DNA of 64,000 nt. It comes from Diphasiastrum complanatum. Taxonomy: Eukaryota; Streptophyta; Lycopodiopsida; Lycopodiales; Lycopodiaceae. The notes below the pieces were generated by a model. That model was not told the DNA's origin, did no database searches, and was given only the letters and a program-made list of their open reading frames with translations. Of the stretch, positions 1 through 63,714 are shown one piece after another (position 1 is the stretch's first letter; each line of letters begins with the position of its first letter). The position numbers and the translations under genes were made by a program. Location of the stretch: assembly GCA_029204225.1 (NCBI GenBank), contig MU831864.1, forward strand, positions 35,977 to 99,976. The letters are read 5' to 3'.

Positions 1-1642
1 CTCAAAAGGTGTCCTTCCATCCAAAATAGCACTCGGCCACCTATTGCACAAGAAATTGGCACACAACAAAGCTTGATCTCAAAATGGTTTGTTAAGATCA
101 GCACTTAACCTCATAGCTTTAGCACTTTCACATAAAGTCCTATTCTTCCTTTCAGCCACTCCATTTTGTTGTGGGGTCCTTGATGTTGTATACTCCCTCT
201 TGATCCCATGCTCATCACAAAAGGCCTTGAACTTGTTAGATATGTACACACCACCATTGTCACCTCTCAAGCACTTGATCTTTGTGAAAAATTGGTTCTC
301 CCTTGCATTCTTGAACTTGACAAAGACATCATACACTTCATCCTTGCTCTTTAGAAGATAGATCCAACAAAATCTACTAAAATCATCAATGAATGTTACA
401 TACATCTTAGCTCCACTATTGCTAATTGTTGTAGTAAATCCATGAATATGCGGATGTACAACTTGAAAAGGCTTTGTAGATCTAGAAATAGATCTAGTAT
501 AAGGTAGTCTATGTGACTTAGACAAAGCACAAGACTCACAAACATGCTTGTCATTACTTAAGGAATTTGGAAGACCAATCACAACCTTCTTCCTTGCCAT
601 TACCTCCAATGACTTGAAGTTGAGGTGTCCCATCCTTTTGTGCCAAACCTCTTGAATAGAAATTTGCTCCCTCAACACATCCAAGTTGGCTAGCAATAAC
701 ACAAGAATCAAGTTTGAACAACTTCCCTTGCCTTTTACCTTTTCCAATCAAGACATCCTTCCTTTTGATCAAACAAGCATCTCCATCAAACTCCACCTTG
801 AGGCCCTTACTTAGCATTTGACTCACACTAAGCAAATTCTTGGTAATAGATGGAATAGACAAGACATCCTCCAAATGAACATTCCTATTTGTAGAGAGAG
901 AAATAGGAATTGTGCCAATCCCTTTGATTGCACACTCACCATCATTGGCCGTGTAGATCACCCTCTTGTCATCTCCATATGCCAACAAAGAAGTGAAGTA
1001 CTCTTTGTGAAAGGTCATGTGTGAACTTGCTCCACTATCAATCCACCAAGGATCTAGATCTCCATCATTAGCAAGCATACATGAAGACATCACAAAAGCA
1101 TCATCATTTGCATCTTTCACATCCAAACCATCCTCATCAAGAGTAAGATTACCTTGCTTGTCTCCTTGATCTCTCTTCTTCTTGTAGCACTCACTTGCAA
1201 AGTGTCCTTTGATGCCACAATAGAAGCACTTGAGCTTTGATCTATCCTTCTTTTTGCCACTTGAAGAAGCATCCACTTGATCTTGCCCTTTAGACCACTT
1301 GCTTTTGGTTTTGTCCTTGAATTTGCCCTTTGTGAACATAGCATCCTCTTGAAGTGTCGATGTAGATCCACCTCTTGCTTGAAGCCTATATTTCTCATTG
1401 ATCAAGATCTCTTGAAGATCCATCAAACTTGGCAAAGTTTTTTGAATAGCAATACTTTGAACAATGTAAGCATGAGCATCCAACAATCCATTAAGAATCA
1501 CTTGAATAAGCTCTCCTTCTTGAATGCTTTCATCTACGCAAGCTAACTCATCATTCAATGCTTTCATTTTCAAAATAAAAGTACTTGGACTTTCTTCATT
1601 CTTTTGCAAACAAGAAAAGATTTGCCTTCTTAGAGTCAACAC
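1..1642 (-). pseudogene. Copia gag-pol remnant, truncated at the left edge
   Basis: Read leftwards this is the middle of a Copia polyprotein. It enters partway through gag at about 1642 (LTLRRQIFS), then shows a CCHC zinc knuckle (CFYCGIKGHFASEC, about 1190-1240), an aspartic protease with DSGASSH (about 1020-1045), the GAG-pre-integrase segment VWHKRMGHLNFKSLE (about 600-645) and the integrase core with IDDFSR and DNGG. The frame shifts near 680, and again near 80, where CANFLCNRW continues to the edge. The first integrase catalytic Asp (HSD in the related intact element at 5339-11758) reads as His here (VHPHIHG). Gag N-terminus, leader and LTR are missing to the right: homology to the intact element stops abruptly near 1642. 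It is the same Copia family as that element but clearly diverged. Dead copy, high confidence. Confidence 0.9.
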
Positions 1643-3022
1643 TCAAACTCGTATTCTATCTTTCCCACACTTTCAAAAAGTGTTTATTCAAATGAAATTT
1701 AGACTAATGAACTTTGAAAAGTCAACCTCTAAGTCTAAAACAAGTTTTGGCCTCAATATGCCAAATATGAAAATATTTCAAAATGTGATGAAACTAGTTG
1801 AATCTTTCACAGGTACCTTATAGACGAAAACCCATATGGTGCCCACACTGCTGGGCTACGCATCCTGCTGATGCTTGTCCTTCATATCGGCCTATCCAAG
1901 CACATACAGTCCAACAATATGAAAAACAACCGTCACCATCTGGACATTCCTTGACTTATCATGAATATGTGGTGAAACCGGCCACTTCATGGTTGATTGT
2001 CCAGTTAAGACCTAGTACCATGCTGAGTGTCCCGACTGTATCAGAAAACACAGTTTCAAAGACTCTCCAAAGCAACCAACTAAGATCCTACCTGCTCGTC
2101 ACGTTAGTTATGAATCACGATAGGATCCTCACGACAACAACGTGAGCACCATGGCAACAAACAATTAAACTTGCTGCTCACTCGAGAAGTTTCTAGCAAA
2201 CTTCTACAATACCGAACAATACACCAGCTCCATAATGAAAAAGACAATATGAAATGAGTCCTTGTCGAAAGAAAGTGAAACCGATATTCCGTCATCTGTT
2301 ACAATGTCCAACCGAGAGCAACCTCCACAAGGAATTGACAGTTTTTCTCCACTTCTACAACCTCAAATATATTTGTCTTTCCACATGCTGATAAGATTTC
2401 CAATGTGCCAATACACAATATTTCTCAGATTCGGAAATCCAGATAGAGATTTGGTTCCGAATCTCTTGTTCAGACAGGTCCTCAGGACATAGTACCTCAT
2501 CCATACCTGCATCTCAAGCTATATCTTACAACATCTGCTATCAATGATGGTAGATTTAGTGTCATCCACCCTGCCTTGTTTTGACAAGGGCATATCAGAG
2601 TAAGCCATATTACTCTACAAAACAAAAGGAATATTGTAATTGTCAAGGTACATTATCAATGTTGATGAATGCAAGTTTTGTTAGACAAGTGCACTACAGT
2701 TCTAACTCTCTGTACAGTTTGTTTATTTCCTTGTTGCTCTTCATTCCTAGTGTGTGATTGATTTTTGCATGAGAAATACCTACTGCACGAGAGTCTTCCA
2801 TAGAGCATCTCCAGAACACATTTTCACTCATCTATCCATCTTCAAATTCCCTTGTACAGCAGTTTAGGATTTTTGAGGCATATGAGAAATCCATGTCAAA
2901 TTAGAGTTGATTCCTGCATCTCATTGCCATATTTTTTTTTGAGTCAACTACAACAAGATCAAAACAAATTTAGCTAAAATTTGTTCAATCTTTAGTCCAG
3001 TCGCATATTCAACAAGTTTCAA
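1643..3022. other. Unassigned sequence between two Copia remnants
   Basis: No gene is recognised. A plus-strand open stretch at 1798-2145 contains a possible Cys/His cluster (CPHCWATHPADAC near its start), which could be a decayed zinc knuckle, but nothing else supports a product. The rest is AT-rich and closed in all frames. Confidence 0.4.
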
Positions 3023-4400
3023 CTACGTGTTCCACACGCCGATCCATAACAATGATCCAATCAGCCTACGATAGGGTGTATTGGTCGTTCGTTTATCTTC
3101 CTCGAGAGTCTGCGGACAATGTGCCTTGCTCAGTATTGTTCCATGTATCATAGGAGTATGCACACCTTTGCATTCGAGCATGTTGAAGTCTTCAATGATC
3201 TTTAGAGTGTACTTTTGTTGGTGAAGATACATCTTGCCACCTTCAAAGTCTCTCTGTATCTGCAAGCCTAGATAGATTTTAGCTTTTCCTAGGTCAACGA
3301 TTTCAAATATTTCAGAAATGTCTCTTTTGACATCTGAAATTAACTTATCTCTTCTTGAGAAGATAAGCATGTCATCACCATAACAGCTAAAATGATTATT
3401 TCATTTTAAACATGTTTGATATAGACATTTGACTCAACAAATAGAGGTTTGAAGTCTAAGGAACATGGTGCTTCATCCTTCTTTCTATATCATTGTCTGG
3501 CTACTTGTTTCAGACCATAAATGCTTTTATTCATGTGACATCCATATTCTGGATATTCTTGGCTTACAAAACCAAGTGGTTGGTCCATGAATAAGTCTTC
3601 TTCCAATTCTGCGTGCAGGAAAGCGGTCTTCTCATCCACAATATGAATTTTCAGATCATGAGCCACTGCATACGCGAATAACAGGCAAATTGATATGTGT
3701 TTGATTACCTATGAGAAAGTATCAGTGAAGTTGATCTCATACTTCTGTGAAAATCCTTTAGCAACCAACCTTGCTTTGTATCTGATGTTTTCTCCATCAG
3801 GGCCTATTTTGATCTTGTAGATCCACTTGCATTTGACTGGTCTTCTACCATCAGGTATAGGTGCAAGTGTCCATACATTGTTCTTATACATGGATGACAT
3901 TTCGTCCTTCATTGCTTGAATCCAGCGATCTTTATCTGGTCCATCAACAACTTCCTCAAATGTTTGAGGTTCATCTGAGAAACCACAATATTCAATGGCT
4001 GCATTTGTTAAAACATCATGGCCATACCTTTCTAGTGGTTTTTGTTGTCTATCAGATCTTCTCACAATTGGTTTCGAGTTCGATTTTGCAGTTTCAGGTA
4101 CGACATTTTCTGCTAAAAATTGAGCTAGTGATTCGAGTCTGTCAGATACTCGATCTTGACCTCCCTCTAAATTTGGTAATTCTGGTTCATCTTCTGCTTG
4201 TTTTACTTCTGTTGTCGTTGGTAGCTCATAATAGTTTTTGAGAATCTCATAGCCGACTAGATCACTGTCTGCTATGTATTTTGACTCATCGAATTTAACA
4301 TCTCGAACAACTTTTATTTAGCCAATTTTGGGTACATAGATGTTGAAAATGAATCCTTTCGAATTCCATCAAGACAAAGTGAACTTATCGTTCTGTCGGA
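3023..4400 (-). pseudogene. Copia pol remnant (integrase tail, reverse transcriptase), different lineage
   Basis: Minus-strand Copia coding sequence broken by stops and frameshifts. From right to left it carries the post-integrase linker (RDVKFDES near 4270-4310), an acidic spacer, RRSDRQQKP, the RT entry block WIQAMKDEMSSM and CKWIYKIK (about 3780-3940), a central RT segment near 3520-3660 (YGLKQ, EEDLFM) and the RT distal part ending in TPYRRLIGSLLW (about 3040-3080). It ends abruptly at about 3023; no RNase H, LTR or primer-binding site is visible. Its wording differs from the element at 5339-11758, so it is another Copia lineage. High confidence as Copia, dead. Confidence 0.88.
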
Positions 4401-5333: not shown

Positions 5334-5338
5334 CTCCC
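5334..5338. repeat. Target-site duplication CTCCC, left copy
   Basis: The 5-bp CTCCC directly left of the left LTR is repeated at 11759-11763 directly right of the right LTR. This is the duplication size expected for Copia integration. Confidence 0.93.
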
Positions 5339-5993
5339 TGTGAAAAATACAGATCCTAAGTGGATCTAAACTCCAAGATCATTGGCTTGAATGCTTGCAC
5401 TCCAAACTACATAAGCTAGGAATTGGCAACACATTCTATGCTACCTAGAATGCAAAGAACTTGATCAAAAAGCATTTATCACAAATGGAAACTTCCATAA
5501 ACATCAAGTGCGGCCCAAAATAGCATTATACAGTCCATAATACATCAGCCTACCACTTTTGGAAAGCACCTAAGATCATACACAATAGCTTGAAGACAAT
5601 ACACACAACAATGCTCTCAATGGAGGAAGAAACAATGACAATGATCTATTGATCTCAATGAAGCATACAAAAGGTTTCTCCAACCTGTTCTCCACGACTT
5701 CCCTACTATTTATGGATGAGGAAGATGACTCTCTCTCCTCTCTCTAGAAGGTACTTGACCCTAGATATTCCCTATATAGGAAAAATAGCTAAAAATGGCT
5801 TATATGACCAAAATACATCAAAATGGTCTCATTTTGAAGGGTATGAAGTTTGACACTTCATCATACTGAAAAAATACAGTAAATAAAAACATTGTGGCCT
5901 GGTTCACACGTGTGAAACTCCAGAACCAAAACTATTTACAATTTTAGCCAATTTAGGCCTCAAACTAGCTAGGAAATGTTGACAATTTTCACA
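5339..5993 (-). repeat. Copia 3' LTR (left copy)
   Basis: 655 bp from TGTGAAAA to TTCACA in plus-strand reading, same length as the right copy at 11104-11758 and apparently identical to it. The gag-pol stop codon (TGA, 5989-5991) lies inside the LTR edge, so the reading frame runs through the polypurine tract into the LTR. Confidence 0.95.
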
Positions 5994-8900
5994 CTCCCTC
6001 TTCAACATTGGATGCTAGTTTCAACATAGTCTTTGAGCACATTCCAAGATTAGATTTATGCATTAAATATAGGTCCTTTCCCAATGGTTTGGTGAAGATA
6101 TCAGCCACACACTCCTTTGAAGAGACATGTTGAAGCTCCACCTCTTTGGCAATGACTTGATCTCTCACAAAATGGTGAGCAATCTCAATGTGCTTGCTCC
6201 TTGCATGAAAAACAGGATTGCTTGCCAAGCTTTGGGCTGAAAGGTTATCACAAAGTATGATTGGAGTCTTCTCTGGTTCCAGCAAGTGAAGATCCAATAA
6301 CATCCTCTTGATCCAAAGAATCTCCTTGGTGCATGTTGTTAATGCCTTGTACTCGGCTTCGGTGGAAGATAGAGAGATAGTTGGTTGCTTCTTTGATAGC
6401 CATGAGACCACTCCATCTCCAAGATAGATTGCAAAGGCACTTGTTGACTTCCTATCCATTTGATCACCTGCAAAATCTGAATTTGAAAATCCACAAAGGT
6501 TAGGTGTAGTACCTCCATACAAGATGCCAAAATCTCTAGATCCCGAGATGTATCTAAGTACTCTCTTTCCTAGCTTCCAATGAGCCTCACTAGGATCTTG
6601 CATAAATTGACTTAGTTTACCAACCACAAAGCTTAGATCAGGTCTTGTGATGGTTAACCATATAAGAGATCCTATTAGCTTTCTATAGAGAGTAATGTCC
6701 TTGAAGGATCTTTCATTACTTCTTGTAGTTAGCTTTACATTTGATTCCATAGGAGTAGAAACAACTTTACAATCTTCCATATGAAACCTTTTTAGAATAG
6801 AGTTAACATACTTTTCTTGACATATGAATGTAGATTTAGAAGTTCTAATAATCTCTATTCCTAAGATATAATGAAGTTTACCAAGATCTTGAATTTCAAA
6901 CTCTCTTTTGAGTGCCATCTTGATTTCATCTATATCTAGATTGTTACCACCACTTAAGATAATGTCATCAACATAGATCAAAAGTAAAGTGATATCATTT
7001 TCATTCAATCTAAAGTAGAGAGAATGATCATACTCACTCATAACAAAGTTTTGAGAAAGTAAGAAGGAATTGAGCTTAGCATACCAACTCCTTGGTGCTT
7101 GCTTTAGCCCATACAAACTCTTTTGGAGATAGCACACATGATTAGGCTCATCATGTGAAACATAGCCCTCGGGTTGCTCCATGTAAATATCTTCTTCAAG
7201 ATCACCATTCAAGAAGGCATTAGTAACATCCATTTGCCACATATCCCAATCATAAAGAGTTGCAAGAGAGATTAGGATTCGAATAGTTACCATCTTTGCC
7301 ATGGGTGCAAAGGTCTCATCATAGTCAATACCATATTCTTGAGCATACCCCTTTGCCACCAACCTTGCCTTGTACTTGTTGATTGATCCATCTTGATTTG
7401 TCTTGATCTTGAAGATCCACTTACAACCAATTGCCTTCTTGTCCTTTGGAAGCTTTACCAACCTCCATGTGTTGCTTTTGATGAGTGCTTGATGCTCATG
7501 ATCCATGGCTTGGATCCATTCCTTCTTTTGAATTGCTTCACCTACACAAGTTGGTTCATCAAAAGAGGTAAGAAAAGCAAAGTTAGAGTTGTCCACCACT
7601 TGCTTTCCTTTTTCATCATAGGTTAGCCTTGATGGCTTAGCCCTTTGCCTTTGAGTCTTCCTTGAAGTTTGCTTTGGAGTGGCATCTCCATCTTCATCCA
7701 AGACATCTTGCACATCATGATGATTAGTAGGCACATCAACATCAACATCAACAACATTGGAAACATTCTCTTCATGAAAGATGACATCCCTACTTATGAC
7801 AACTTTCTTTGTAGAAGGAATGTACACTTTGTAAGCCTTGCTTACTTCACTATAGCCAACAAACACACCCTTCTTTGATGAAGGATCTTCTTTAGTTCTA
7901 TCATCAAGTGTGATATTGACAAAACATGTACATCCAAAGATCCTACAATGCTTGACACTCGGCCTTCTACCATAAAGAACCTCATGAGGAGTTTTACCAT
8001 CCAAGGAAGCACTTGTCCATCTATTACATAGATAGTTAGCACATGCTAAAGCTTCCCCCCAAAAAGACTTAGCAAGATTAGCATGTAGTCTCATTGCCTT
8101 GGCACATTCACAAAGGGTTCTATTCTTCCTCTCGGCCACTCCATTCTATTGTGGAGTCCTAGGACTAGACATCTCCCTCTTAATCCCATGTGCTATACAA
8201 AAGTCTTTGAACCTATTTGAGGTGTATTCCCCTCCATTATCAGATCTTAAGCATTTGATCTTTGTATTGAATTGGTTTTCCATTTCATTCTTGAACTTGA
8301 CAAATGCAGCAAACACTTCATCCTTACTTTTAAGAAGATAGATCCAAGTATACCTACTAAAGTCATCAATGAAAGTTGCATACATCTTTGCCCCACCATT
8401 GCTAGTTGTACTAGAAGAATGAATATCAGAATGCACAAGTTGAAAAGCTTCTTTAGATCTAGAAGTAGATCTAGAATAAGCAAGTCTATGAGATTTGGAC
8501 AAGGCACAATGTTCACAAACACTATTGTTTGCAACAAGACTTTTAGGGAGACCAAGAACAAGCTCTTTCTTTGCCATTACCTCCAAAGATTTGAAGTTGG
8601 GATGGCCCAACCTCTTGTGCCAAACTTCTTGGTTTGTCAATTGCTCCCTAGCCATACATCCTTCATGATTAGAGATCACACATGCATCAAGCTTGAAAAG
8701 TTTACCATACCTCCTACCTTGAGCAATCAAGGATCCACATTTACTTATCAAACATGCATCTCCAATGAACTCCACATCAAGTCCTTTGTCAATCATTTGA
8801 CTTACACTAAGCAAATTCTTAGTGATTGAAGGAATGTACAAAACATTTTCAAGATTTGCTTTCCTATTTGTTGAAAGGGAAATAGGAATAGTGCCTATGC

Positions 8901-9942
8901 CTTTGATGTCACATTGACCATCATTTGCAGTGTAGATGATGTTACCTTCTCCCTCATAAGACAATAAGGATGTAAAGTATTCCTTATGTCTTGTCATGTG
9001 AGATGAGGCTCCACTATCAATCCACCAAGGATCATTATCATCTATGTTGGCTAACAAACTTGAAGTCATAACAAGTGATTCACATGTGTTATGTTCTTCC
9101 TCATCTATTGTAAGATTTCCTTGCCTCTCTCCTTGCTCTCTTTTCTTCTTATAACATTCATTTGCAAAATGACCTTTTATCCCACAATAAAAGCACTTGA
9201 ACTTTGACTTATTGTTCTTAGTAGAAGAGGAAGAGGAAGAGTGATCATCATGATCAAAGTTACCACCTTTGGACCATTTCCCTTTGCCTTTACCTTTGCC
9301 CTTGAATTTGCCTTTTGTGAAGAAAGCCTCTTCACCTCCACCTTGCAAGGATGCACCATCAAGCTTTGATTGCAACCTATGTTCTTCAGCCAATAAGATT
9401 TCTTGCAAGTCAACCACACTTGGCAAGACTCTTTGAATGGCAAAACTTTGCACAAGGTTAGCATGTTCATTTAGCAAACCATTCAACATAACTTGGACTA
9501 TTTCACCATCTTTTATGTTCTCATCAATGCATGCTAAATCATCACTTAGGGACTTAACTCTCAAGATAAATGCATGAGCACTTTCACCCTCTCTTTGCCT
9601 ACTAGAAAATATTTGTCTCCTTAGGGTCAATACCCTAGATGTGGACTTTGATTCAAAGAGCTTCTTTAAGGCATTCCATGCCTCACTTGCACTTTGACAC
9701 TTTCCAACTTCCTTGAGAAGTTCATTTGTAACATTCATTTTAATGATATGAAGAGCCCTTTTGGCCTTCTTATCAAACCTTTGTTGCTCTTGAAGTGTGA
9801 GAGGTCTCTCTTCAATTTCTGCAACTATGTCCATGAGTTCATTCAACTCAAGTAAGGACTCCATCCTCACTTTCCAAGTAGAGTAGTTTGATGAACTCAA
9901 CCTTTCACTAGACTCTAGCATGATCCCACCATTGGAAGCCAT
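5989..9942 (-). CDS. Copia gag-pol polyprotein with one internal amber stop
   Basis: Starts at the ATG at 9940-9942 and ends with TGA at 5989-5991; about 1317 codons in one frame, interrupted only by TAG at 8146-8148, where the family has Gln in the motif RTPQQNGVAERK. Order by residue from the start: gag (about 1-240), CCHC knuckle CFYCGIKGHFANEC (about 250), protease DSGASSH (about 306), GAG-pre-integrase EVWHKRLGH (about 436), integrase with first Asp in VHSDIHS (about 503), second Asp in SDNGGEY (about 567) and the Glu just after the stop (VAERKN), then RT with YVDD and RNase H ending in KHIEIAHHFVRD. All catalytic residues are present apart from the premature stop. As written the product would end inside the integrase, giving a 598-residue gag-protease-partial-integrase protein unless the stop is read through. 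Confidence 0.93.
8146..8148 (-). other. In-frame amber codon (TAG) in the Copia integrase
   Basis: The minus strand reads AGG ACT CCA CAA TAG AAT GGA GTG GCC, so TAG replaces the second Gln of the conserved PQQNG motif; CAG to TAG is a single transition. The frame is open on both sides. Confidence 0.95.
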
Positions 9943-11091
9943 GATTCTAATGTTTCTTCAACTTTTAGGTTTTGTCCTAAAGCACTTAGCACTCACTTTT
10001 CTCTCAACAAATGATAGATAAAGAGATCTATGAAGATTTAGGACCCTAAAACACTTCTATCTTGAACCTAGATGGTTTCCAAGCATAGAAAGGAAGATTG
10101 AAACACATGCAACACTTTGCACACACTAAGAATGGATTACAAAATCAAACCAACCTGAACACACTCTTGCTTAAGCTCTCAAACTTTCCAGCAAGTGACC
10201 AAATCAAGTTATGGTGTGAAGAGCTACTTGCATTCTTAGAAAATACCCAAAACTAGGATGCCAAGATTACCTAGTAATGAACAAACTTGATCAACACACT
10301 AAGATACTGATTCAACCTGTAAAACCACATGTAAACCACACTTCTAAAAGTTTATAAACTCCAGCAAGTGATAAATACAAGATTTAGAGGTGAATGAATG
10401 AGCACACTTAGTGAATCACAAGACTAGCTTCACTATCTTGTCAAATCTTGGTGTTTAGATGTAGATCTAAGATCACTTCACATGAGAATGTTCCTCAACC
10501 TGTTAAGAACCTGAAAACACACTTGCATAATGGTTAACACCTTCCAGCAAATGCTCCAATCAAATTACATAAGGAGAGTTACTTACATGCTCAACAAAGT
10601 ACACCAAAAATTATGCCAAAATTGATGACAATCTTTACAATATGCTCTTCACAATGGAGCTTACAATATGTTCACCCAAAAAAGGGGATCTTTCATCCAA
10701 ATGGGAGCTTTGCTCAGCCTTTAGGAGAATTACAACTCACTCAAAAGAGCATTTGTCATCCACTTAAGGAGAAGTTTCATCCACTTAAGGAGAGTGTTCA
10801 TCCAAGAATGGAGATTGTCAACAATAGGATTGAAAAGAACATTGTTAGTATTGAATATGCACAAGCCTCACAATCACAAATGATTAGGTGTTATGATCTG
10901 ATCCAAAATAGTTTCTTTTCAGCCTCTGATCTTCAATAGACCTGAAATATGCTTTTGATCCACAAGTTCAACTCACAAAACAAAGGTTAGTAAGATTTGA
11001 TCAACAAAGCAATGCAAAATCATGCTAGAACTTGATCAAACATCCAAATATCACCAAAAATGGAATACTTACTGTAAATAGAAGCCAACCA
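9943..11091 (-). other. Copia leader between primer-binding site and gag start
   Basis: About 1.15 kb without a convincing gene. It holds three degenerate direct repeats around the motif CCAGCAA(G/A)TG at about 10191, 10361 and 10545, spaced 170 and 184 bp, each followed by similar AT-rich text. A shorter repeat built on CATCCACTTAAGGAGA lies near 10760-10800. Confidence 0.6.
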
Positions 11092-11103
11092 GCTCTGATA
11101 CCA
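11092..11103 (-). promoter_or_regulatory. Primer-binding site for initiator Met tRNA
   Basis: The minus strand reads TGGTATCAGAGC directly after the 5' LTR end, the classic complement of the 3' end of plant initiator Met tRNA used by Copia elements. Confidence 0.95.
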
Positions 11104-11758
11104 TGTGAAAAATACAGATCCTAAGTGGATCTAAACTCCAAGATCATTGGCTTGAATGCTTGCACTCCAAACTACATAAGCTAGGAATTGGCAACACATT
11201 CTATGCTACCTAGAATGCAAAGAACTTGATCAAAAAGCATTTATCACAAATGGAAACTTCCATAAACATCAAGTGCGGCCCAAAATAGCATTATACAGTC
11301 CATAATACATCAGCCTACCACTTTTGGAAAGCACCTAAGATCATACACAATAGCTTGAAGACAATACACACAACAATGCTCTCAATGGAGGAAGAAACAA
11401 TGACAATGATCTATTGATCTCAATGAAGCATACAAAAGGTTTCTCCAACCTGTTCTCCACGACTTCCCTACTATTTATGGATGAGGAAGATGACTCTCTC
11501 TCCTCTCTCTAGAAGGTACTTGACCCTAGATATTCCCTATATAGGAAAAATAGCTAAAAATGGCTTATATGACCAAAATACATCAAAATGGTCTCATTTT
11601 GAAGGGTATGAAGTTTGACACTTCATCATACTGAAAAAATACAGTAAATAAAAACATTGTGGCCTGGTTCACACGTGTGAAACTCCAGAACCAAAACTAT
11701 TTACAATTTTAGCCAATTTAGGCCTCAAACTAGCTAGGAAATGTTGACAATTTTCACA
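11104..11758 (-). repeat. Copia 5' LTR (right copy)
   Basis: 655 bp, apparently identical to 5339-5993. Read on the minus strand it is the promoter LTR; the primer-binding site abuts it and the CTCCC target duplication follows at 11759-11763. Confidence 0.95.
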
Positions 11759-11763
11759 CTCCC

Positions 11764-15229: not shown

Positions 15230-15506
15230 TATTGTACAATATAGTGGTAGATACACCGTAGGGTTTGGTAAAGAGGAAAGGGGACTTTAATATTTTTGCA
15301 GTTGATTGCTTCGCATGATATATGCCCTAGGGTTTTGTAAAGGAGATTGCTCTTCGATTATTTTGCATTAGATCCGACCTAGGTTTTGGTCAAGGGAATC
15401 TCTCTACGTAGGCAGTTGATTATTTTGCATTAGGGTTTCATCAAGGGGATTTCTTGGCATACAATTTTTGGTATTGATTATTTTGCCAAGATTTAGGGTT
15501 TTCAAG
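15230..15506 (+). promoter_or_regulatory. MFAP1 leader with repeated AGGGTTT motifs
   Basis: The 5' flank contains AGGGTTT (reverse of the plant telo-box AAACCCT) at about 15258, 15332, 15431 and 15493. It also has imperfect direct repeats carrying GATTATTTTGC three times (about 15355, 15418, 15476), each followed by a (C)TAGG- or TAGGGTTT-type end. Telo-boxes are known in leaders of plant growth and translation genes. Regulation is inferred, not shown. Confidence 0.5.
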
Positions 15507-17016
15507 ATGTCGGTAGCAGCGGGTGTGAGCGATGCTGCCATCACAGTTAGAGAGAAGCTGAGAGGGAAAATAGGGCAGACAAAGGTTAAGAGGTATTGGC
15601 CCGGAAAAGCCCCTGAATGGGCAGATGAAATTGAAGAAGAGGTTGATGTGAGGGCCAGCAGAGTTGAAGCAGCATTTCCTTTGCGAGAAGATGGACACTT
15701 GCCTTTGAAAGATGATGTTCGTCTCAGAAGATTGGCAGAGAGTAGAAGGGACAGAGAGGAGGCCGTTGCGAGGCACAGGCAGATTAGACAGGCCGAGATT
15801 GTTTCAACCAGGGAAGAAGAAAGACAGGCTTTGGAAGCGGCAGCTCTAGAGGAAGAAGAAGACGATGATGCAATCGAGGCAAGGAGAAGGAGAATCAAAG
15901 AAAAGCTTCTGCAGAGGCAAAAAGAGGAGGAGGTGGCTCTGGAGGAGGAAGATGAAGAGGAAGAAGAAGAAGAGGAAGAGGAATCTGACTATGAGACCGA
16001 TTCAGATGAGGAATTTGGAGGCATTGCAATGGTCAAGCCTGTTTTTGTACCAAAAGCTGAGAGAGAAACTGTGGCAGAAAGAGAAAAGCTTGAGGCTGAA
16101 GAACATGCCATCGAAGAGTCTATGAAGAAAAAGTTAGAGGAAAGAAAGCTTGAGAGTCAAAAGCTTGTCTTTGAGGAAGTGAAGAAAGAGCAGGAGATTG
16201 AAAAGAACAAGGGTGCCGAGGAAGAAGGTGGTGATGTGGACACAGACGATGAGATAAATGAAGCAGATGAATATGAAGCTTGGAAAGTTAGAGAGCATGC
16301 TCGAATTAAGAGAGACAAAGAAGACAGAGAAGCAATGGTGAAGGAGAAGGAAGAGATTGAGAGACTAAGAAATATGACAGAAGAGGAAAGGAGGGATTGG
16401 GAAAGAAAGAATCCAAAACCTCTGGTGCCTGCCAAGAAGAAATGGAAGTTCATGCAGAAGTACTATCACAAGGGTGCATTCTTTCAATCTGGCCCTGATG
16501 ATACTGCAGCGACTTCAGGAGGAGAAAACATTTATCGGCGAGATTTCTCAGCACCCACTGGGGATGACAAAATGGATAAGACAATATTGCCCAAGGTTAT
16601 GCAAGTCAAGCACTTCGGGCGTAGTGGCCGCACTAAATGGACCCATCTTGTTGCTGAAGATACAACTCAATGGGATACTCCGTATGCTTTTTCTCCCTTG
16701 ATCTGCAAAATTTTGAAAGAAAGTTACATTTTTATTGCTTGATTTTGTTGGATAAGAAAGTCAAGACATGCTTCTATGCCAAATAGAAGACTTTAAGTTG
16801 GCTTAATCACATAAATTGTGTTTCTGATATTTTTGCGTTCAGCAATGTGTGGCTCACTTAGCCTGTTTATTCAATGTTTCCACAAATTGTGATTCGAATG
16901 TTGAATCGCAATTCAATCATTCGAATCGGACGGACTCAGTTCGAACCGGAATTTTGTTTGAACCGGACGGACTTTTGGCTCTTTTGCAGGGGCCGAATCG
17001 TGTGAGCCCTGGATTG

Positions 17017-17087
<71 letters not shown>

Positions 17088-18739: not shown

Positions 18740-18826
<87 letters not shown>

Positions 18827-21278
18827 TGCATCATTGCCACTTGTGGGTCTTGACTTCCCAATCATCAAGACTCAAGAGTGGGAGTGGTGTGCACTATGTA
18901 GTATTGTAATGGAAAAAAATTGTATTCATTGAAGAGGGCTTAGGGTTTAGGAATGTTGCATTGTGAGAGCTTGTCTTTGATTCATCATTCTTGACCATGC
19001 ATTGTGCAATCATTAATGTGCATTCTAAGAGCCTAGAGGGGTTTGAAGTCCACGAATGATGACACACTGAATGATTGATGATTGTAGTTGTTAGAAGTCA
19101 GGACTTAGTAGTAAATTATTAATTAGTTAGAATTTGGAATTTCATGCATATTCCACATCACACAATGTTGAATAGTCAATCACAGTGCACATGCCACGAT
19201 TGTCGACAGTGAACACATGCCACACTGAGCACTCTCATCTTGAACTTTGAATTCTGACTCCTAACTTCCTAAGTACTAACTCCTAAGTCCTTGCTCATTT
19301 TCGACCAACAAAACTGTTTCAGGGCTGTCTTTCTTGGCATTTACAATTGGCTTTTGTTCAAAAAACACTACACGTCACATTTCACAATCACCCAATTCCC
19401 AAAAAGAAATTTTTTTTTTTACCGTTGTCCAATTTGAACCGAGCTGACCGATTCAAACCGGTTTGAATCGGTCTGATTCAAATGGTCTGCATGTCCTACC
19501 TCAGTTGGATGGGACATAGTTGGTGGTCATCTCATCTACTTGTATTCTCTTCCATATGTGCTTGGCTATTGTTTAATCACAATAGGAATCTTATCTTGGT
19601 TGCTTGCATGAACAAGTCGGTTTTCTAACATGGTAGAGCGTGTACAATCATGCTTGACCCATTGATTTTTTTTTAACATGATATAAAAGACATCTATGAT
19701 GACCTCATCTTCATCATCATTAAATCATAAGTAGGAAATCGATCTACACGTCAATACAAATGCTCTTCAATTCTCCTGCATCAACATCCTCGTTAGAAAC
19801 ATGTAGTCATAAGTATTCGGCTCCACTTGTGCTGACTCGAGTTGAATCCATTCCAATTCCCCTGGCACTCTCATAAGATACCACCTTTGATGGAGTTAGC
19901 TGGACTGCTTGGATGTTCATCATCACAGAACCGATAACACTCCATGTTCGCATTCCCACTCTCCAATGATGATATAAAAAGAATGTTATTCATGAACCAA
20001 ACAAAATCTGGATGTAATAGATCATCCCCAATAGATATATAAACTATTCAATACTTCGTCACACAAAGCATCTAATACTATTTTCAAATACCTCCTCACA
20101 CATATTACTTGATACTACCTTCTCCCTGGAATCTTATCTTTTTTTTCTTCATTAAACACTTATAGTTCAAACAGTCAATTGCTTTAGCAATTTAGACATA
20201 GGTCTCTCTAGCATGGAGCATGTCCTACCATAGTTGTATGGGACAAAGTTGGAGTTCATCTCATGACTTGTATTCTCTTCCAATAGTGCTTGGCTATTGT
20301 TTCACCACAATAGGAATGTTATCTTATTTGTTTCAATGAGCAAGTCGGATTTCTAACATGGTAGAGCGTGTACGATCATGCTTGATCCATTGCAGGTTTT
20401 TTAACACCTTAATTTAAGATATTTGCAAAAATTCTGAACATTGGTGAAAATCTTGTTGAATAATGACTGGTAACTCACGTTGCTTCTGTGCGTCTTTTTT
20501 CCATCCATGGAAGTGCTTCTATATTAAGTTTCAATCAAATCATATAGTTCTTTTTTTATAGTTGAACCAAGGAGCTTGTAAATTAATGATTAGATCGTGA
20601 TGGGATGAACCTTTTGAAGGAGAGACAATTTGTAGCTATCACATTGCTGTGAGATATTTGCAGGTTGGCTTAAGTTGCAGAGTAATCCTCTCTTAAAGGA
20701 GGCAATAACTTTCTGTAGATAGTCTTGAGTTTGGAGCTAGTCCTTTGTATTGGCAGCAACAGAGATGAGTCTGAAGACTCTGAACTTACCATCCACCCTT
20801 CTAGGAGGCCTGAGTTGATTAAAGATTTTGAATTCTAGGCCAGAAATAAAGGTGGGCTAGGGAGGCTTTAATATATATTCTATCATGGGGTTGCGAGTTG
20901 ATCAACTTAAAATTAAGACCTTGAGTGCGAACCTGATAGGGTTTATTACAGCTGCAAATGATGGTCCATGGCACTTAGCTGTGATTTTAACTTACGCAGG
21001 AACATAGTCTTGTGAGATTTAATTTTCACATTGAACAAATAATATGTTGTCCAGTTGCTCGAATGGTTACATCAGTTGATGGTTGAATGTTGTCACTTTA
21101 GTTTAGAATCGCTTTGTTCCTTTTACTTGACAAGTCATTCTGGTTTTTTTATTCCTTTTGCAGGTGGACATACAATGATCCATTGCGAGCAAAATACAAC
21201 TCTAAAATGGCTGGGATGAACAGACCCATTGCAAAGCCAAAAGGAAGCAAGAAGCTTAAGGACTGGGAAGAGAAGTAG
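15507..21278 (+). CDS. MFAP1: Microfibrillar-associated protein 1 (MFAP1), spliceosomal protein; 2 coding exons
   Basis: Join 15507-16681 and 21164-21278, 429 residues. The ATG at 15507 is preferred over the in-frame 15468 because the protein then begins MSVAAGVSDAAI as in plant MFAP1. Exon 1 encodes the conserved N-terminus (GQTKVKRYWPGKAPEWADE), a long charged coiled-coil with an acidic Glu/Asp run (near 15940-16010), and the C-terminal MFAP1 domain (KKKWKFMQKYYHKGAFFQ, VKHFGRSGRTKWTHLVAEDT). The donor is CC|GTATGC at 16682 and the acceptor TTTTGCAG at 21163. The phase-2 join gives DTPWTYNDPL, and exon 2 ends KGSKKLKDWEEK. The family works in pre-mRNA splicing as a B-complex component that contacts Prp38. 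Length and both ends fit an intact gene. The 4482-bp intron carries several repeats. Confidence 0.96.
17020..17083. repeat. (GA)n tract at the 3' end of a minus-strand LINE
   Basis: About 64 bp of pure (AG)n, directly followed by AAAGCTTTATTAATGTC, the reverse complement of the LINE 3' end also seen at 45148 and 47926. Confidence 0.9.
17084..18743 (-). mobile_element. LINE-derived ORF1-only element (half-LINE) in the MFAP1 intron
   Basis: On the minus strand this runs from a GC-rich 5' region (18743 leftwards) to an ORF1 remnant, then to a 3' end reading GACATTAATAAAGCTTT directly before (CT)n. About 200 bp separate the ORF1 stop from the tail, so there is no room for ORF2 (endonuclease/RT): it is a non-autonomous, half-LINE-like copy. 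The 5' 700 bp (about 18000-18740) is low-complexity and purine-rich on the plus strand, with repeats around GGTAGCGATGGCAGG. Both ends touch (GA)n tracts of the same orientation. Confidence 0.7.
17283..17955 (-). pseudogene. LINE ORF1 protein remnant (coiled coil, RRM-like, C-terminal domain)
   Basis: Minus strand. A coiled coil (FQISTLENTVLTLQGKVG, about 17850-17925), then after a frameshift a basic linker and an RRM-like stretch (LNVKVRGASFAGKDL, VFLRFKDALLRKRFC), then after another frameshift near 17462 the C-terminal part (IFMDEDLTPIQWTERKK, FRDGRPVLVKI) to a stop at 17283-17285. This order is that of nucleic-acid-binding ORF1 proteins of L1-type LINEs. At least two frameshifts make it a pseudogene. 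Confidence 0.72.
18744..18821. repeat. (GA)n tract at the 5' side of the half-LINE
   Basis: About 78 bp of pure (GA)n, on the far side of the LINE copy from the tract at 17020-17083 and in the same orientation. Confidence 0.9.
19446..19473. repeat. Perfect 28-bp palindrome
   Basis: GACCGATTCAAACC followed directly by its exact reverse complement, with no loop. Related GAATCGGAC/GAACCGGAC text occurs near 16918-16975 in the same intron. Confidence 0.95.
19492..20358 (+). mobile_element. TRIM-like element: two 139-bp LTR-like repeats
   Basis: Direct repeats at 19492-19630 and 20221-20358 start TGTCCTACC and end TTCTAACA. Each is followed by TGGTAGAGCGTGTAC, which resembles a shortened initiator-Met primer-binding site (TGGTATCAGAGC). 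About 590 bp of non-coding sequence lies between them. Because the second repeat is also followed by primer-site and internal-like sequence (to about 20395), this looks like a tandem LTR-internal-LTR-internal array. No coding capacity. The purine tract before the second LTR is weak. Confidence 0.55.
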
Positions 21279-24324
<3,046 letters not shown>

Positions 24325-51300: not shown

Positions 51301-54300
51301 TTGCCACCCTCACTCGCCTTAAAGGCCACCTACTCGGCGCACACGCGAGAGATGGTGGCACACTGAATGCTGCTCCCTGTGCCAGCATGTCCGTTCCCGT
51401 CAGGCAGCGACTTTTGGATACCTACGGGCCACGTCTTGTGGCGTGGGAGAACACCATTTCGGAGGGTGTTCTTCGGTTTTGCACCGCTCCTTACGTGGTT
51501 TTCCCCGAGTTGCTGCCTGCTTGGCTGGCACGCAGGAGGAGAGGGAGTGCATCCTCGTCCAGTCCCTTTGCCCCTCATCCCCCTCAGACAGCCTCACGCA
51601 CCCCCATCTGCACCCATTCCGGTGGATCCTGTCCCACCGCGTCCGCCAGTTGCCACTGTGGTTCCACCACCACCTACTGTTGCTCGCACTCCCCCAGTTT
51701 ACGACTTTCTCATGGACTCTTCGCCTCTCGAGCAGGAGCAGGCCCCGGATGCCAGTGACGAGGCCTTCTAGGATGTTGAGGAGATCCCTTCCTTCCTCCC
51801 TTCACATCCGGATGACCTCCCTACCCAGCAGTTTTCGTATCCCATGCCAGATGTCCACCCTCCACCAGTGTACCCCACTTACGCTGCTGCACCCATCTCG
51901 GCCAGTGCATCCCACTCTCCCCATTCCACATCTACAGCTGATGCATCCACTAGTGCCCAGCCTGTCGCGTCATCATCCATTCCTGATAGCATTTCATAAT
52001 CACATACATCAAATTGCAATACACAAGGCACGCATTGCACAAAAAACACACCGTACATTAATTCATCAGATGTATCAAAATTACAATACGTATTCCCGCC
52101 GCATACGGCTGGGGCTGTTCTTTACACTATGCTAGACACTAAATACTGCCTCATCTACTGATGAACATTACATAACAACAGTCAGCCACATACGGCTAGA
52201 CCCCATCTATGCTCCTCCACAATGCCCATGTGCTACTGTACCTGCCCCATGTATTGATCCCCCACATGCTGCACTCCGATTGGGTCCATGGTCTGCTCCT
52301 CCACAGTGCCCATGTGCTACTGTACCTGCCCCATGTATTGCTCCCCCACATGCTGCACTCCGATTGGGTCCGTGGTCTGCTCCCCCACAGTGCCCATGTG
52401 ACGGTGTACCTGTCCGGATTTGCTGCCCCCCCCACATGCTGCACTCCCATTGACCACCAGGTCTGCTCTCCCACAGTGCCCCCAGTACAGTCCCCCCGTA
52501 CAGTAACATCTTTTTTCTAAACCGTACCCCTTTTTTTTTCTTGAATTTTTTACCTAGTTTTAGCCTGTTAAAAGGGTTTTTTTTAATTTTAAAAACAAAT
52601 AATAAAAAATATTATTTTTGTGGTGCCGCCCTGGTACCGCTGGTCTAAGGGCGGCACGATAACCGTGGTACCACCATTATGGTACCGCGGTACCATAATG
52701 GCGGTACCACGTGCCACTATGATATATATGTTAAAAAAAATATTAAATATTAAAAAAAATTAATATATTATGGTACCGCGGATCAGTATTGATCCGCGGT
52801 ACCAGTGTGGATCTGCGGTACCAGTGTGAACTACCTTTGAGAAGATAGTCATAGTATGAAGATCATTTGCTTCTGGATGCTGCTGCTGAACAGTTTTGGC
52901 TGGCGATCCCATCGGTAGGCGTATGCCAACATTTCTTTCTCATTTTTATAGTTTAATTTCAATACTTTTTGTGCCAAGTGAATGCAGCAGGTTACAAGTT
53001 AGCTGAAATTATTGAAGAACTGAGGGTTCAGCGTGTATACACACTGAAGAGAACCAATTCTATGTCTCTGAATTTTTTTTTATTTGAATGTGCAATTTTG
53101 TCTTGGCAGATAATACTTTGATTTCCTATGTCGGTTATTTTCTATACGTTCTTTACCAGTTTTGCATTTTTGTCAATTTCCTGGAGAGGATAATCAAGCA
53201 CAAGGCTTTCTCATTGTACTTTTAATAACCAAGCATTTTCCTATGCAGTGTCGGGAGCATCTCGAACAACTTCTGGGGAACATCCCAAGCATGTTTCAAG
53301 ATAACAGGACCGCTGATTCTGCATTTGGAGCAGCTGTGAAGGTTGGTTTCTGTGGAAGTGCACAAACATGAGTAGCCTCTGACAACAATTCAACCTATTT
53401 ACTCTTGGCCTTTGATGTATCTATTCACTATGTGCATCTTCTATGTCGATGCTTCTCTCAAAATACTTTTAAGAGGTTTTATATTACAGGGGGCTTTTCT
53501 AGCACTGAAGCCTACAGGTGGCAAGTTATTGGTCTTCCAATCAGGTGTGCAACTTCTTTTATCAATTTCTTTTAGCTCTGAGATTCTTATTATTGTAACC
53601 ACTTCCTCAATGCACAGTTTGATCATACCTATCTACCTCTAGTAACTTTTCCAAATGGATTTTTGGCAACTTTGATAAGAAATGGAACATATCCAGGGGG
53701 AATTTGTTCAAGAGTTTGAATTCTAGTTTTGAAACTGGTTCTATGCTGATCAAATTGAGTCATAACATCCAAAGATTCTAAAGCTTGTGGGTTTCATTAT
53801 TGCCATTGTAAACTGGGTTTGAGAAATGAGTGAAGCTTTTGATTATCGAGTACTTACAATAAATAAGGAGGATGCATGCCCTGTACTAAACATGACTTTG
53901 TTTGAGAGCATTTTGTTATTTATTGGGTGCTAGGGTCCAATTATGGATCAAACATGATCTCAGACGGACTGATAACCGGAAAGTCAGTGACATGTTAGAT
54001 GTAGAGTTTATCAATAACTAAGCTCAGCATCTAGCCCAAGTTGTATTGGGTGTGTCACTACTTGCAACCTAGTGAGTCTGTCTAGCAAGAGGTCAGAGTT
54101 GCAAGTTGGGGATGACCATCATGGGTCTAATTGCTAAAGTCGTATTATTCAACTCATGACATGGTTAGCCAGCAGGTTGCCGAGGCAATATAGTGATTAT
54201 CTTAAGCAATATGGGTGCATGAAGGTGGCTTTCAGTAGTGTATGCATCTTCCTGGTTGGGTAAGGTGCATAGATTTGGTTAGATCAACTTCTTACCACAT

Positions 54301-60300: not shown

Positions 60301-63300
60301 TCGTGGGGTACCCTGGAAACGTCCAGTTTCAATCTCAAGCTGATGTGAAGATACTCTGAACTGTCCCAATGTAAATCTCAAACAGTGTGATAACCCAAAG
60401 TCTAGGTACTGCGGCTGGGACTGGGAAGCCCGATACATCAAGCTCTAAGAAATGAGTCCGATAGAAGTCGGGTTTAACACCCAACTGTCCCTGCCAGGTA
60501 TGTCGAAGATAAGCTCGATAAATGTATCGCCAGATATACTCATGGGTACCTACTGGAAGGTCGGAGATGGGGATGCTGAGTGAACTCAAGAGACGAGTGG
60601 CCTGTCAATACCACGATGAGTGGAAACCCATACTGTGAAGCTGCATCGAAGAAGTAACCACCATAAAAATATTGTCAGGAGGAAGTGCTAAGGCTCTCTG
60701 AATAAACACGATGAGTCTGAAGAGAGCATCAACTAGCAATGGAGGAATTGCAAACTCTGTGGTGATGATATGATGTGGTACTGATGACTTAGCTCGTATC
60801 ATCCGAGAGCGCATAGTGATATGTAGTCATGATCTACTAGCCCAATCAGAGGAGGTGAGGCCAGTGCACCAAGTCTCAGCTGAATAGAGTACTGTAGGAG
60901 TGACCATAATGTCAAAAAGGCGACATTTACTAGGAGCATCGTGAATATATCTCCTGAAGCATAATCTCTCTAGCTGGACCAAGGATGCATGGCCCTTCCC
61001 CAGGCGGGCCAAAGCTGCATGTCTCATATTGAAAATAGGACCACTAAAGAGCACCCCCAGGTAGGTATACGATGAAACCACCTCTAGAGGCTGATCAAAG
61101 GTGAGCTCCTGTCTGAGCATGAAAGATCTAGAAGTGTTGAAGACCATAACTTTGGTCTTCGAAATGTTCACCTATAATCCCCATCGAGCACAAAATGTCT
61201 GTAGACTGTAAAGTGTCTCTGTAGTCCCTCCTTGGTCGGAGATAATAGAGCTACATCATCCGCATATAAAAGTATGACGATCAAGATATCACCAAGCCGA
61301 CATCCCTGACCATCACCTTGACTAATAACCTCCTCCAGCTCATCAATATATAATCCAAATAAAGTAGGTGATAAGGAACAACCCTGCTTCACCCCAATCG
61401 TGCTCAATACTGGATCTGAAATGTCAACCAATACACTGCTTGATGTGCAACAAGGTATGACTTGGTAGAAGAGTTTCCAACAAGACCTAAAGTTCTGTTC
61501 GAACATCTTCCATGCGTATAGATATTGGTCTCATAATGATAGAGTCTGGATGTACAAGGGTTGTTCAATGTTATTCAATGCTTTGTGTTACATCCATGCC
61601 TGATACAGAGGATTTGGAATAATCCTTGACGTGGATATTCGGTACCCATTACGACATATGGAGCTAGTGCATGGTGTCTAACTGCATAAATGCATGTGAG
61701 GGAGATCAGAAGCAATTGGATGAGAATCAGCATCTTATAGGGAATATTCCTAGGCCTTAGGGGATTAAATATACCTGTAGGAACCCGCCCTACTCACCTA
61801 TTTTCCCGTTTCTAGTTGCCAACATCCGTCACCATGGCTCTGGGGAGAAGTTGATTAGGGTTTGACTCGGCTTCCAACTGGATAGGTGGTTTGGCTCCAC
61901 AATAGTCCTTTTGGCGCATGCAACGGGATCTAGAGGATGGCTAGTGCATGGTGTCCGACGACTATAAATGCATGTAAAGGAGATCAAAAGCAATTGGATG
62001 AGAATTGGGATCTTATAGGAAATATTCCTAGGCCCCAGGGGCTTATATATACTTCTGGGAACTCGCCCTACTTCTCACATATTTCTTTGTTTCCAATTGC
62101 CAGGATCCTGTTAGAAATCCATAAATCATAATATGGATGGACAGACTAGGATTCGAACCCGGACCTCCCTCATACCGGATGGGATGCTCTACCACTAAGC
62201 TATCCGCCCTGTTTGATAGTTCTCTCTAGAGTGTGGATTGATATTCCAACCCCCTCCCCCCCCCCCCCTCAAGCCACACTTGGTTGGGGTCCTAGCTGTC
62301 ACCTGCCCCACAACTTGGGTCACCTAACCATGGCTTTGACACCATGAACTGTTAGGTCTAACTTGGCTCTAATACCATGTTAGAAATCCATAAATCATAA
62401 TATGGATGGACAGACTAGGATTCGAACCCAGGACCTCCCTCATACCGGATGGGATGCTCTACCACTGAGCTATCTGCCCTGTTTGATAGTTCTCTCTAGA
62501 GTGTGGATTGATTATTCCAACATCCTCTCGTGTATTCAGTCACTGTGGCTTGGGGGAGAACCTGATTGGGATTTGACTCTTGGCTTTCAGCTGGATGGGT
62601 GGTTTGGCTCCACAGTAGTCCTTTTGGCGCATGCAACAAGATCGAGAGGATCTACACTTGGTGGCTATTATACTTTGTGTGATCAAATAACGTGGCAAAG
62701 CAAACTTGGGTCCGATGGAACTCCATGTATAATTTAGTATTCTTTCATTATTCAAAGGAATACTAAATTATACATGTAGTTGCATCAGACCCAAGTTTGC
62801 TTTGCTACATTGTTCGATCACGCAAGGATTGAATACTTTGAGCAACCCTTGTACATGTAGATATCATTGTTTTTAAACTTTCTAGGCTTTTCCTTTTCTA
62901 AGATACCTTAAAATATTCACAAAGAAACCCTGCCTTCCTCCCCCCCTCCCAAAAAAAAAAAGGAAAAATAAAATGTTCCTTTCTAGAATGTCCTAAAATT
63001 CCGGAATGCGATGGGTCCTATGATTGAATTAACCTATAAATTACCTACAAGAGCTAGAGGGCGACCAGCCTTGCCTGCTTTGATACCATGTTATAATTCT
63101 ACAATCTTCCCAAGGCAAGTAGCATTCAATCATCCACAAAAAGAGACAAGAGAAGGTAACAATATTTGAAAGAATGAATAAGCAATAGCTGATGGTACAC
63201 TAACCCAACTCCCACTGGGGAATGCCCAATATATAGTTACAACATTGACTCTCAACCACCAAGGGTCTTGGAATTTGGAAGTCAATCACCGAAGATCCTA

Positions 63301-63655: not shown

Positions 63656-63714
<59 letters not shown>

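Follow-up and report, generated by a model that had tools for sequence, protein, structure and literature searches.

A probable Helenus-type miniature LTR retrotransposon of the clubmoss Diphasiastrum complanatum, with tRNA-like sequences in both LTRs

The 64-kb stretch of clubmoss DNA that was analysed (the window) contains a complete miniature LTR retrotransposon (TRIM) of 414 bp on its minus strand (62522-62109), both LTRs of which include a tRNA-like sequence. It is probably a TRIM of the Helenus type, transcribed by RNA polymerase III (Pol III) from a tRNA-like promoter that is not a working tRNA, and copied by the proteins of Copia-type elements. Helenus was defined by Kojima in 2024 as the TRIMs whose LTRs contain sequence derived from a tRNA (PMC10886601). 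An LTR pair, ARAGORN and Rfam all bear out the original prediction for this DNA, that a miniature LTR retrotransposon here has tRNA-like segments within both of its LTRs.

The element has a 5′ LTR of 145 bp (62378-62522), an interior of 126 bp (62252-62377) and a 3′ LTR of 143 bp (62109-62251), all given in the minus-strand sense. Alignment of the LTRs pairs 143 positions, with three substitutions (one of them at terminal base 1) and two single-base indels, and confirms the lengths of 143 and 145 bp originally proposed. On the plus strand the outer ends of the element read TG (62109) and CA (62522), and the inner end of the left LTR reads CC in place of CA; these letters, too, are as first described. 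The adjacent primer site and G-rich run that had been noted are the primer-binding site TGGTATTAGAGCC, of initiator-Met type, which abuts the 5′ LTR (minus strand, 62377-62365), and a G-rich polypurine tract of 19 nt at the end of the interior, which abuts the 3′ LTR (minus strand, 62252-62270). We take TGGTATTAGAGCC to match the 3′ end of plant tRNA-iMet, with one base differing as a G-U pair. At most 138 codons could be accommodated in 414 bp, fewer than retrotransposon proteins need. A BLAST search with the element found no further copy of it in the 64-kb window, where the other matches were of 22 nt or less. Exact-pattern scans gave no matches in viral contigs (two patterns) or prokaryote genome contigs (one pattern), a result that is uninformative because both collections by design contain no plants.

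Each LTR received one tRNA call from ARAGORN, in the sense of the element, and there were no other calls in the 64 kb: 73 nt in the 5′ LTR (62407-62479, minus strand) and 72 nt in the 3′ LTR (62138-62209, minus strand), each labelled tRNA-Thr(ggt). Twenty first-order Markov sequences of 64 kb each yielded no ARAGORN calls. When the window was searched with Rfam at gathering thresholds (29 bits for tRNA), the same two sequences matched RF00005 from the first to the last position of the model, with 52.4 bits (E 2.2e-8) in the 5′ LTR and 42.1 bits (E 1.5e-5) in the 3′ LTR, and nothing else in the window rose above a gathering threshold. The cloverleaf-like segment that had been proposed for each LTR is in this way recovered by both programs. 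Pairing acceptor, D and T arms had also been proposed: counting G-U, the 5′ LTR copy has standard pairs throughout (acceptor 7/7, D arm 4/4, T arm 5/5), and the 3′ LTR copy departs from the proposal by one mismatch among its five T-arm pairs. The regions of the A box and the B box in the 5′ LTR copy fit what we take to be the consensus.

The tRNA-like part has the look of a promoter derived from a tRNA and not of a sound tRNA gene. One of the five pairs of the anticodon arm in the 5′ LTR copy is mismatched in either of two registers, and no isotype is assigned here for that reason. Position 33, at which U is usual in tRNAs, would be C in both copies. The segment of the 5′ LTR folds into a cloverleaf at minimum energy and that of the 3′ LTR does not; the folding energies themselves are unremarkable (z of -1.08 and -0.30, with 28 and 64 of 200 shuffles folding equally well or better) and were dropped as evidence for a tRNA. 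What speaks for a tRNA is the match to the covariance model and the ARAGORN calls. Among the phage rows listed for database matches, an annotated tRNA-Thr lies under the match in nine of 15 (two phages appear twice, and the 15 rows come from 906 matching records), annotations that agree weakly with the Thr label given by ARAGORN. A comparison of the whole element with plasmids returned 65 records, none of which spans 80% of it.

The insertion itself is directly visible, because next to the element lies a tandem copy of its target that has no insert. A unit of about 276 bp is duplicated head to tail at 61663-62651; the first copy (61663-61938) is uninserted, and the second (61940-62651) is split by the TRIM. 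With the element and one ATCCT removed, the second unit (295 bp) was aligned with the first (276 bp) as an empty-site comparison: the two agree at 233 of 276 positions, 13 of the 19 extra bases lie right at the junction, and the bases beside the junction agree at 44 of 57 positions to its left and at 49 of 60 to its right. Divergence between the tandem units (84% identical) exceeds that between the LTRs, an indication that the duplication is older than the insertion of the element. Just past the TRIM lies a 71-nt inverted repeat (62675-62825) that is 87% complementary with a 9-nt gap.

The element is flanked by a 5-bp target-site duplication, ATCCT, at 62105-62109 and 62522-62526, for which each end must be shifted one base inward from TG...CA; the last base of the left copy is the first base of the TG...CA reading, and the first base of the right copy is its last. 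If the ends are TG...CA, the junctions offer no repeat of at least 4 bp. Either the element ends in G...C or the fit of the duplication is off by one base, judged from the single copy at hand. Of 8858 placements sampled in this window, 106 (1.2%) gave an identity of 5 bp lying no more than one base from each end.

These observations bear on two readings that dispense with an LTR retrotransposon. Two copies of a tRNA-derived SINE could have landed close together, making the look of LTRs a coincidence, and the tRNA-like head with its A and B boxes would suit a SINE. However, the two units are equal in extent and orientation and abut a primer site and a purine tract. They show no A-rich tail, the 5-bp repeat stands at the outermost ends of the 414 bp, and the neighbouring tandem unit lacks the whole insert; we consider this reading very improbable, and the outer ATCCT together with the empty paralogue speaks strongly against a tRNA-SINE at this locus. 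Lone units with target duplications of their own, which the original prediction had named as the finding that would overturn it, are absent here, the 5-bp repeat flanking the whole element. Nor does it seem credible, beyond the very slightest chance, that a region with a tRNA pseudogene was simply duplicated segmentally or in tandem, with no retrotransposition. The surroundings are themselves tandemly duplicated, as that would lead one to expect, but the element splits one of the tandem units, the units match on both sides of it, and the primer site, the purine tract and the end letters would be left unexplained. What the sequence shows directly is the LTR anatomy, the primer site, the purine tract and the integration.

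For the way in which this retrotransposon is transcribed, we infer from its sequence that Pol III, acting at the tRNA-like boxes, is the likeliest agent. Using the A and B boxes of the 5′ LTR, Pol III would start a few bases ahead of the tRNA-like sequence there and would transcribe the interior and the 3′ LTR as well. The repeated (R) region of the resulting RNA would be the tRNA-like sequence, present at either end, giving a predicted partition of each LTR into a U3 of about 38 bp, an R that is the tRNA-like region and a U5 of 29 bp. Initiator-Met tRNA would prime the reverse transcription, which the proteins of Copia-type elements would carry out, and the DNA copy would then be integrated; the tRNA-like part would act throughout as a promoter and not as a working tRNA. 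A CAA string stands 4 to 6 bases ahead of the tRNA-like sequence, a place from which plant tRNA genes are often transcribed. The element contains no TTTT, the stop signal of Pol III, and the first TTTT on the sense strand starts 119 bases beyond the 3′ LTR. The missing TTTT says nothing about full-length transcription by Pol III, because 978 of 2000 shuffles are likewise without one, and it was dropped as evidence.

A possible but unlikely alternative is a TRIM driven, as ordinary TRIMs are, by Pol II, in which the tRNA-like sequence is a passenger from a tRNA gene or a SINE that was inserted into an ancestral LTR. The degenerate anticodon arm is what a passenger might display, as is the distribution of differences between the LTRs, with three of the five located in the tRNA-like half, including one in the region of the A box; such a distribution does not point to the promoter having been specially conserved after insertion. 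On the other hand, the region of the B box is identical in the two LTRs, and the one base by which the A-box regions differ is changed to another letter that the consensus permits. Conservation around the boxes has, moreover, been reported in fungal and animal Helenus (PMC10886601), which also speaks against a passenger.

The ends of the element RNA may in addition be set by RNase Z or RNase P, the tRNA-like sequence then serving as the R region, the start and the 3′-end signal at once. This idea, to which we attach little probability, arises because the 5′ LTR copy retains its acceptor stem, D arm and T arm in an element that has no Pol III stop; the intact arms may instead reflect a recent capture.

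Copia-type proteins, the proposed source of the copying machinery, are represented in the window by a young Copia element at 5334-11763 on the minus strand. Its LTRs (5339-5993 and 11104-11758) are identical at 655 of 655 bases, the 5-bp duplication GGGAG flanks it on both sides, its primer site TGGTATCAGAGC is of the same initiator-Met type as that of the TRIM, and one or more in-frame stops close to the integrase part break up its polyprotein. Despite the shared primer type, it is not claimed as the mobiliser of the TRIM: by BLAST the two are similar over only 22 nt, at the junction of LTR and primer site, and the Copia element is therefore an example of its class and not a shown partner. 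Further Copia coding pieces lie at 1-4317 on the minus strand, their left end cut by the edge of the window, and positions 1-1642 are about 72% identical to 7981-9633 of the element at 5334-11763.

Elsewhere in the window, an open frame for MFAP1 (15420-16742, plus strand; PF06991, 247.8 bits) shares 98% identity, across 91% of its length, with a protein of Diphasiastrum complanatum (Lycopodiaceae, Lycopodiopsida), and the next named MFAP1 matches are those of liverworts, at 77 and 76% (both among the best 120 of 2370 matches). Direct repeats of 190 bp at 19489-19678 and 20218-20406 are 86% identical, and each contains TTCTAACATGGTAGAGC, which resembles a decayed LTR end with a primer site; a string like an LTR end at 20347-20363 turned out to be part of this degenerate repeat. 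An 84-bp tandem repeat is present in 3.2 copies at 52210-52481, and extended GA/CT dinucleotide tracts, pure or almost so, occur at 17020-17083, 18744-18821, 24224-24322 and 63658-63711.

The original prediction had stated that no tRNA equivalent of Cassandra had been described. This was wrong: Helenus, described in 2024, includes one family in a lycophyte (PMC10886601). Helenus is reported there from fungi and animals, and among plants only from Selaginella moellendorffii, whose Helenus-1_SMo has LTRs of 120 bp, an interior of 85 bp and 5-bp duplications (PMC10886601). The clubmoss element agrees with what characterises Helenus: it is non-autonomous, is shorter than about 1000 bp (414 bp) and has two LTRs, each with a sense-strand tRNA-like sequence that carries A and B boxes; its interior has a primer-binding site and a polypurine tract; and its duplication, ATCCT, has the 5 bp of Helenus in plants and fungi when the ends are placed one base in from TG...CA. 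Compared by description, it shares with Helenus and with Helenus-1_SMo the tRNA-like sequence in each LTR, the primer site and the purine tract, and with the latter also the 5-bp target duplication, a size below one kilobase and a lycophyte host. Its tRNA, as in many Helenus families as described, does not look sound. It differs from Helenus-1_SMo in that its host belongs to the Lycopodiaceae and not the Selaginellaceae, and in its LTRs of 145 and 143 bp and interior of 126 bp, in place of 120 and 85 bp. The longest complementarity between its tRNA-like sequence and its primer site is four bases, and according to the published account of Helenus no complementarity between the two was found there (PMC10886601). 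The same account suggests a Pol III promoter for Helenus, though as unproven, and proposes the term TRIMp3 for TRIMs that have one (PMC10886601).

Like Cassandra, the clubmoss element is a TRIM that holds the sequence of a Pol III gene in its LTRs, but those of Cassandra contain 5S rRNA sequence and those of the clubmoss element are tRNA-like, with no 5S rRNA found at Rfam gathering thresholds anywhere in the window. The Cassandra transcript is described as ending in the 3′ LTR (PMC10886601), whereas the clubmoss element has no T-run stop. Ajax, also from Kojima (2024), is likewise a TRIM with the promoter of a small-RNA gene in its LTR, but it is derived from 5S and comes from two nemertean worms (PMC10886601). 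The tRNA-like head with A and B boxes is shared with tRNA-derived SINEs (SINE2), which are described as having no LTRs, primer site or purine tract and as copied by LINE proteins (PMC10886601). TRIMs had already been found in Selaginella by Gao et al. in 2016 (PMC4717578), in the main text of which "tRNA" occurs zero times and "transfer RNA" once, about the filtering of reads. No other plant elements of the Helenus kind were found by title in a literature search, outside which most subscription papers lay; among the papers covered, Helenus as a TRIM is named from 2023 on in that of Kojima alone, and TRIMp3 occurs in four, three of which have titles on other subjects.

The clubmoss element adds a host family and a clear example to Helenus, and no new principle. 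Clubmosses and Selaginella stand on opposite sides of the main split within the lycophytes. With this element, Helenus-type elements reach the Lycopodiaceae, the second lycophyte family after the Selaginellaceae as hosts are described in PMC10886601, which raises the question of whether there is one old lycophyte lineage of Helenus or there were repeated captures. In Isoetes sinensis, another lycophyte, 8,975 tRNA genes are reported, with no cause given in the report as seen in part (PMC10541799); this count is a possible sign of tRNA-bearing repeats there. The counts of tRNA genes in lycophyte genomes may be inflated by Helenus-type elements.
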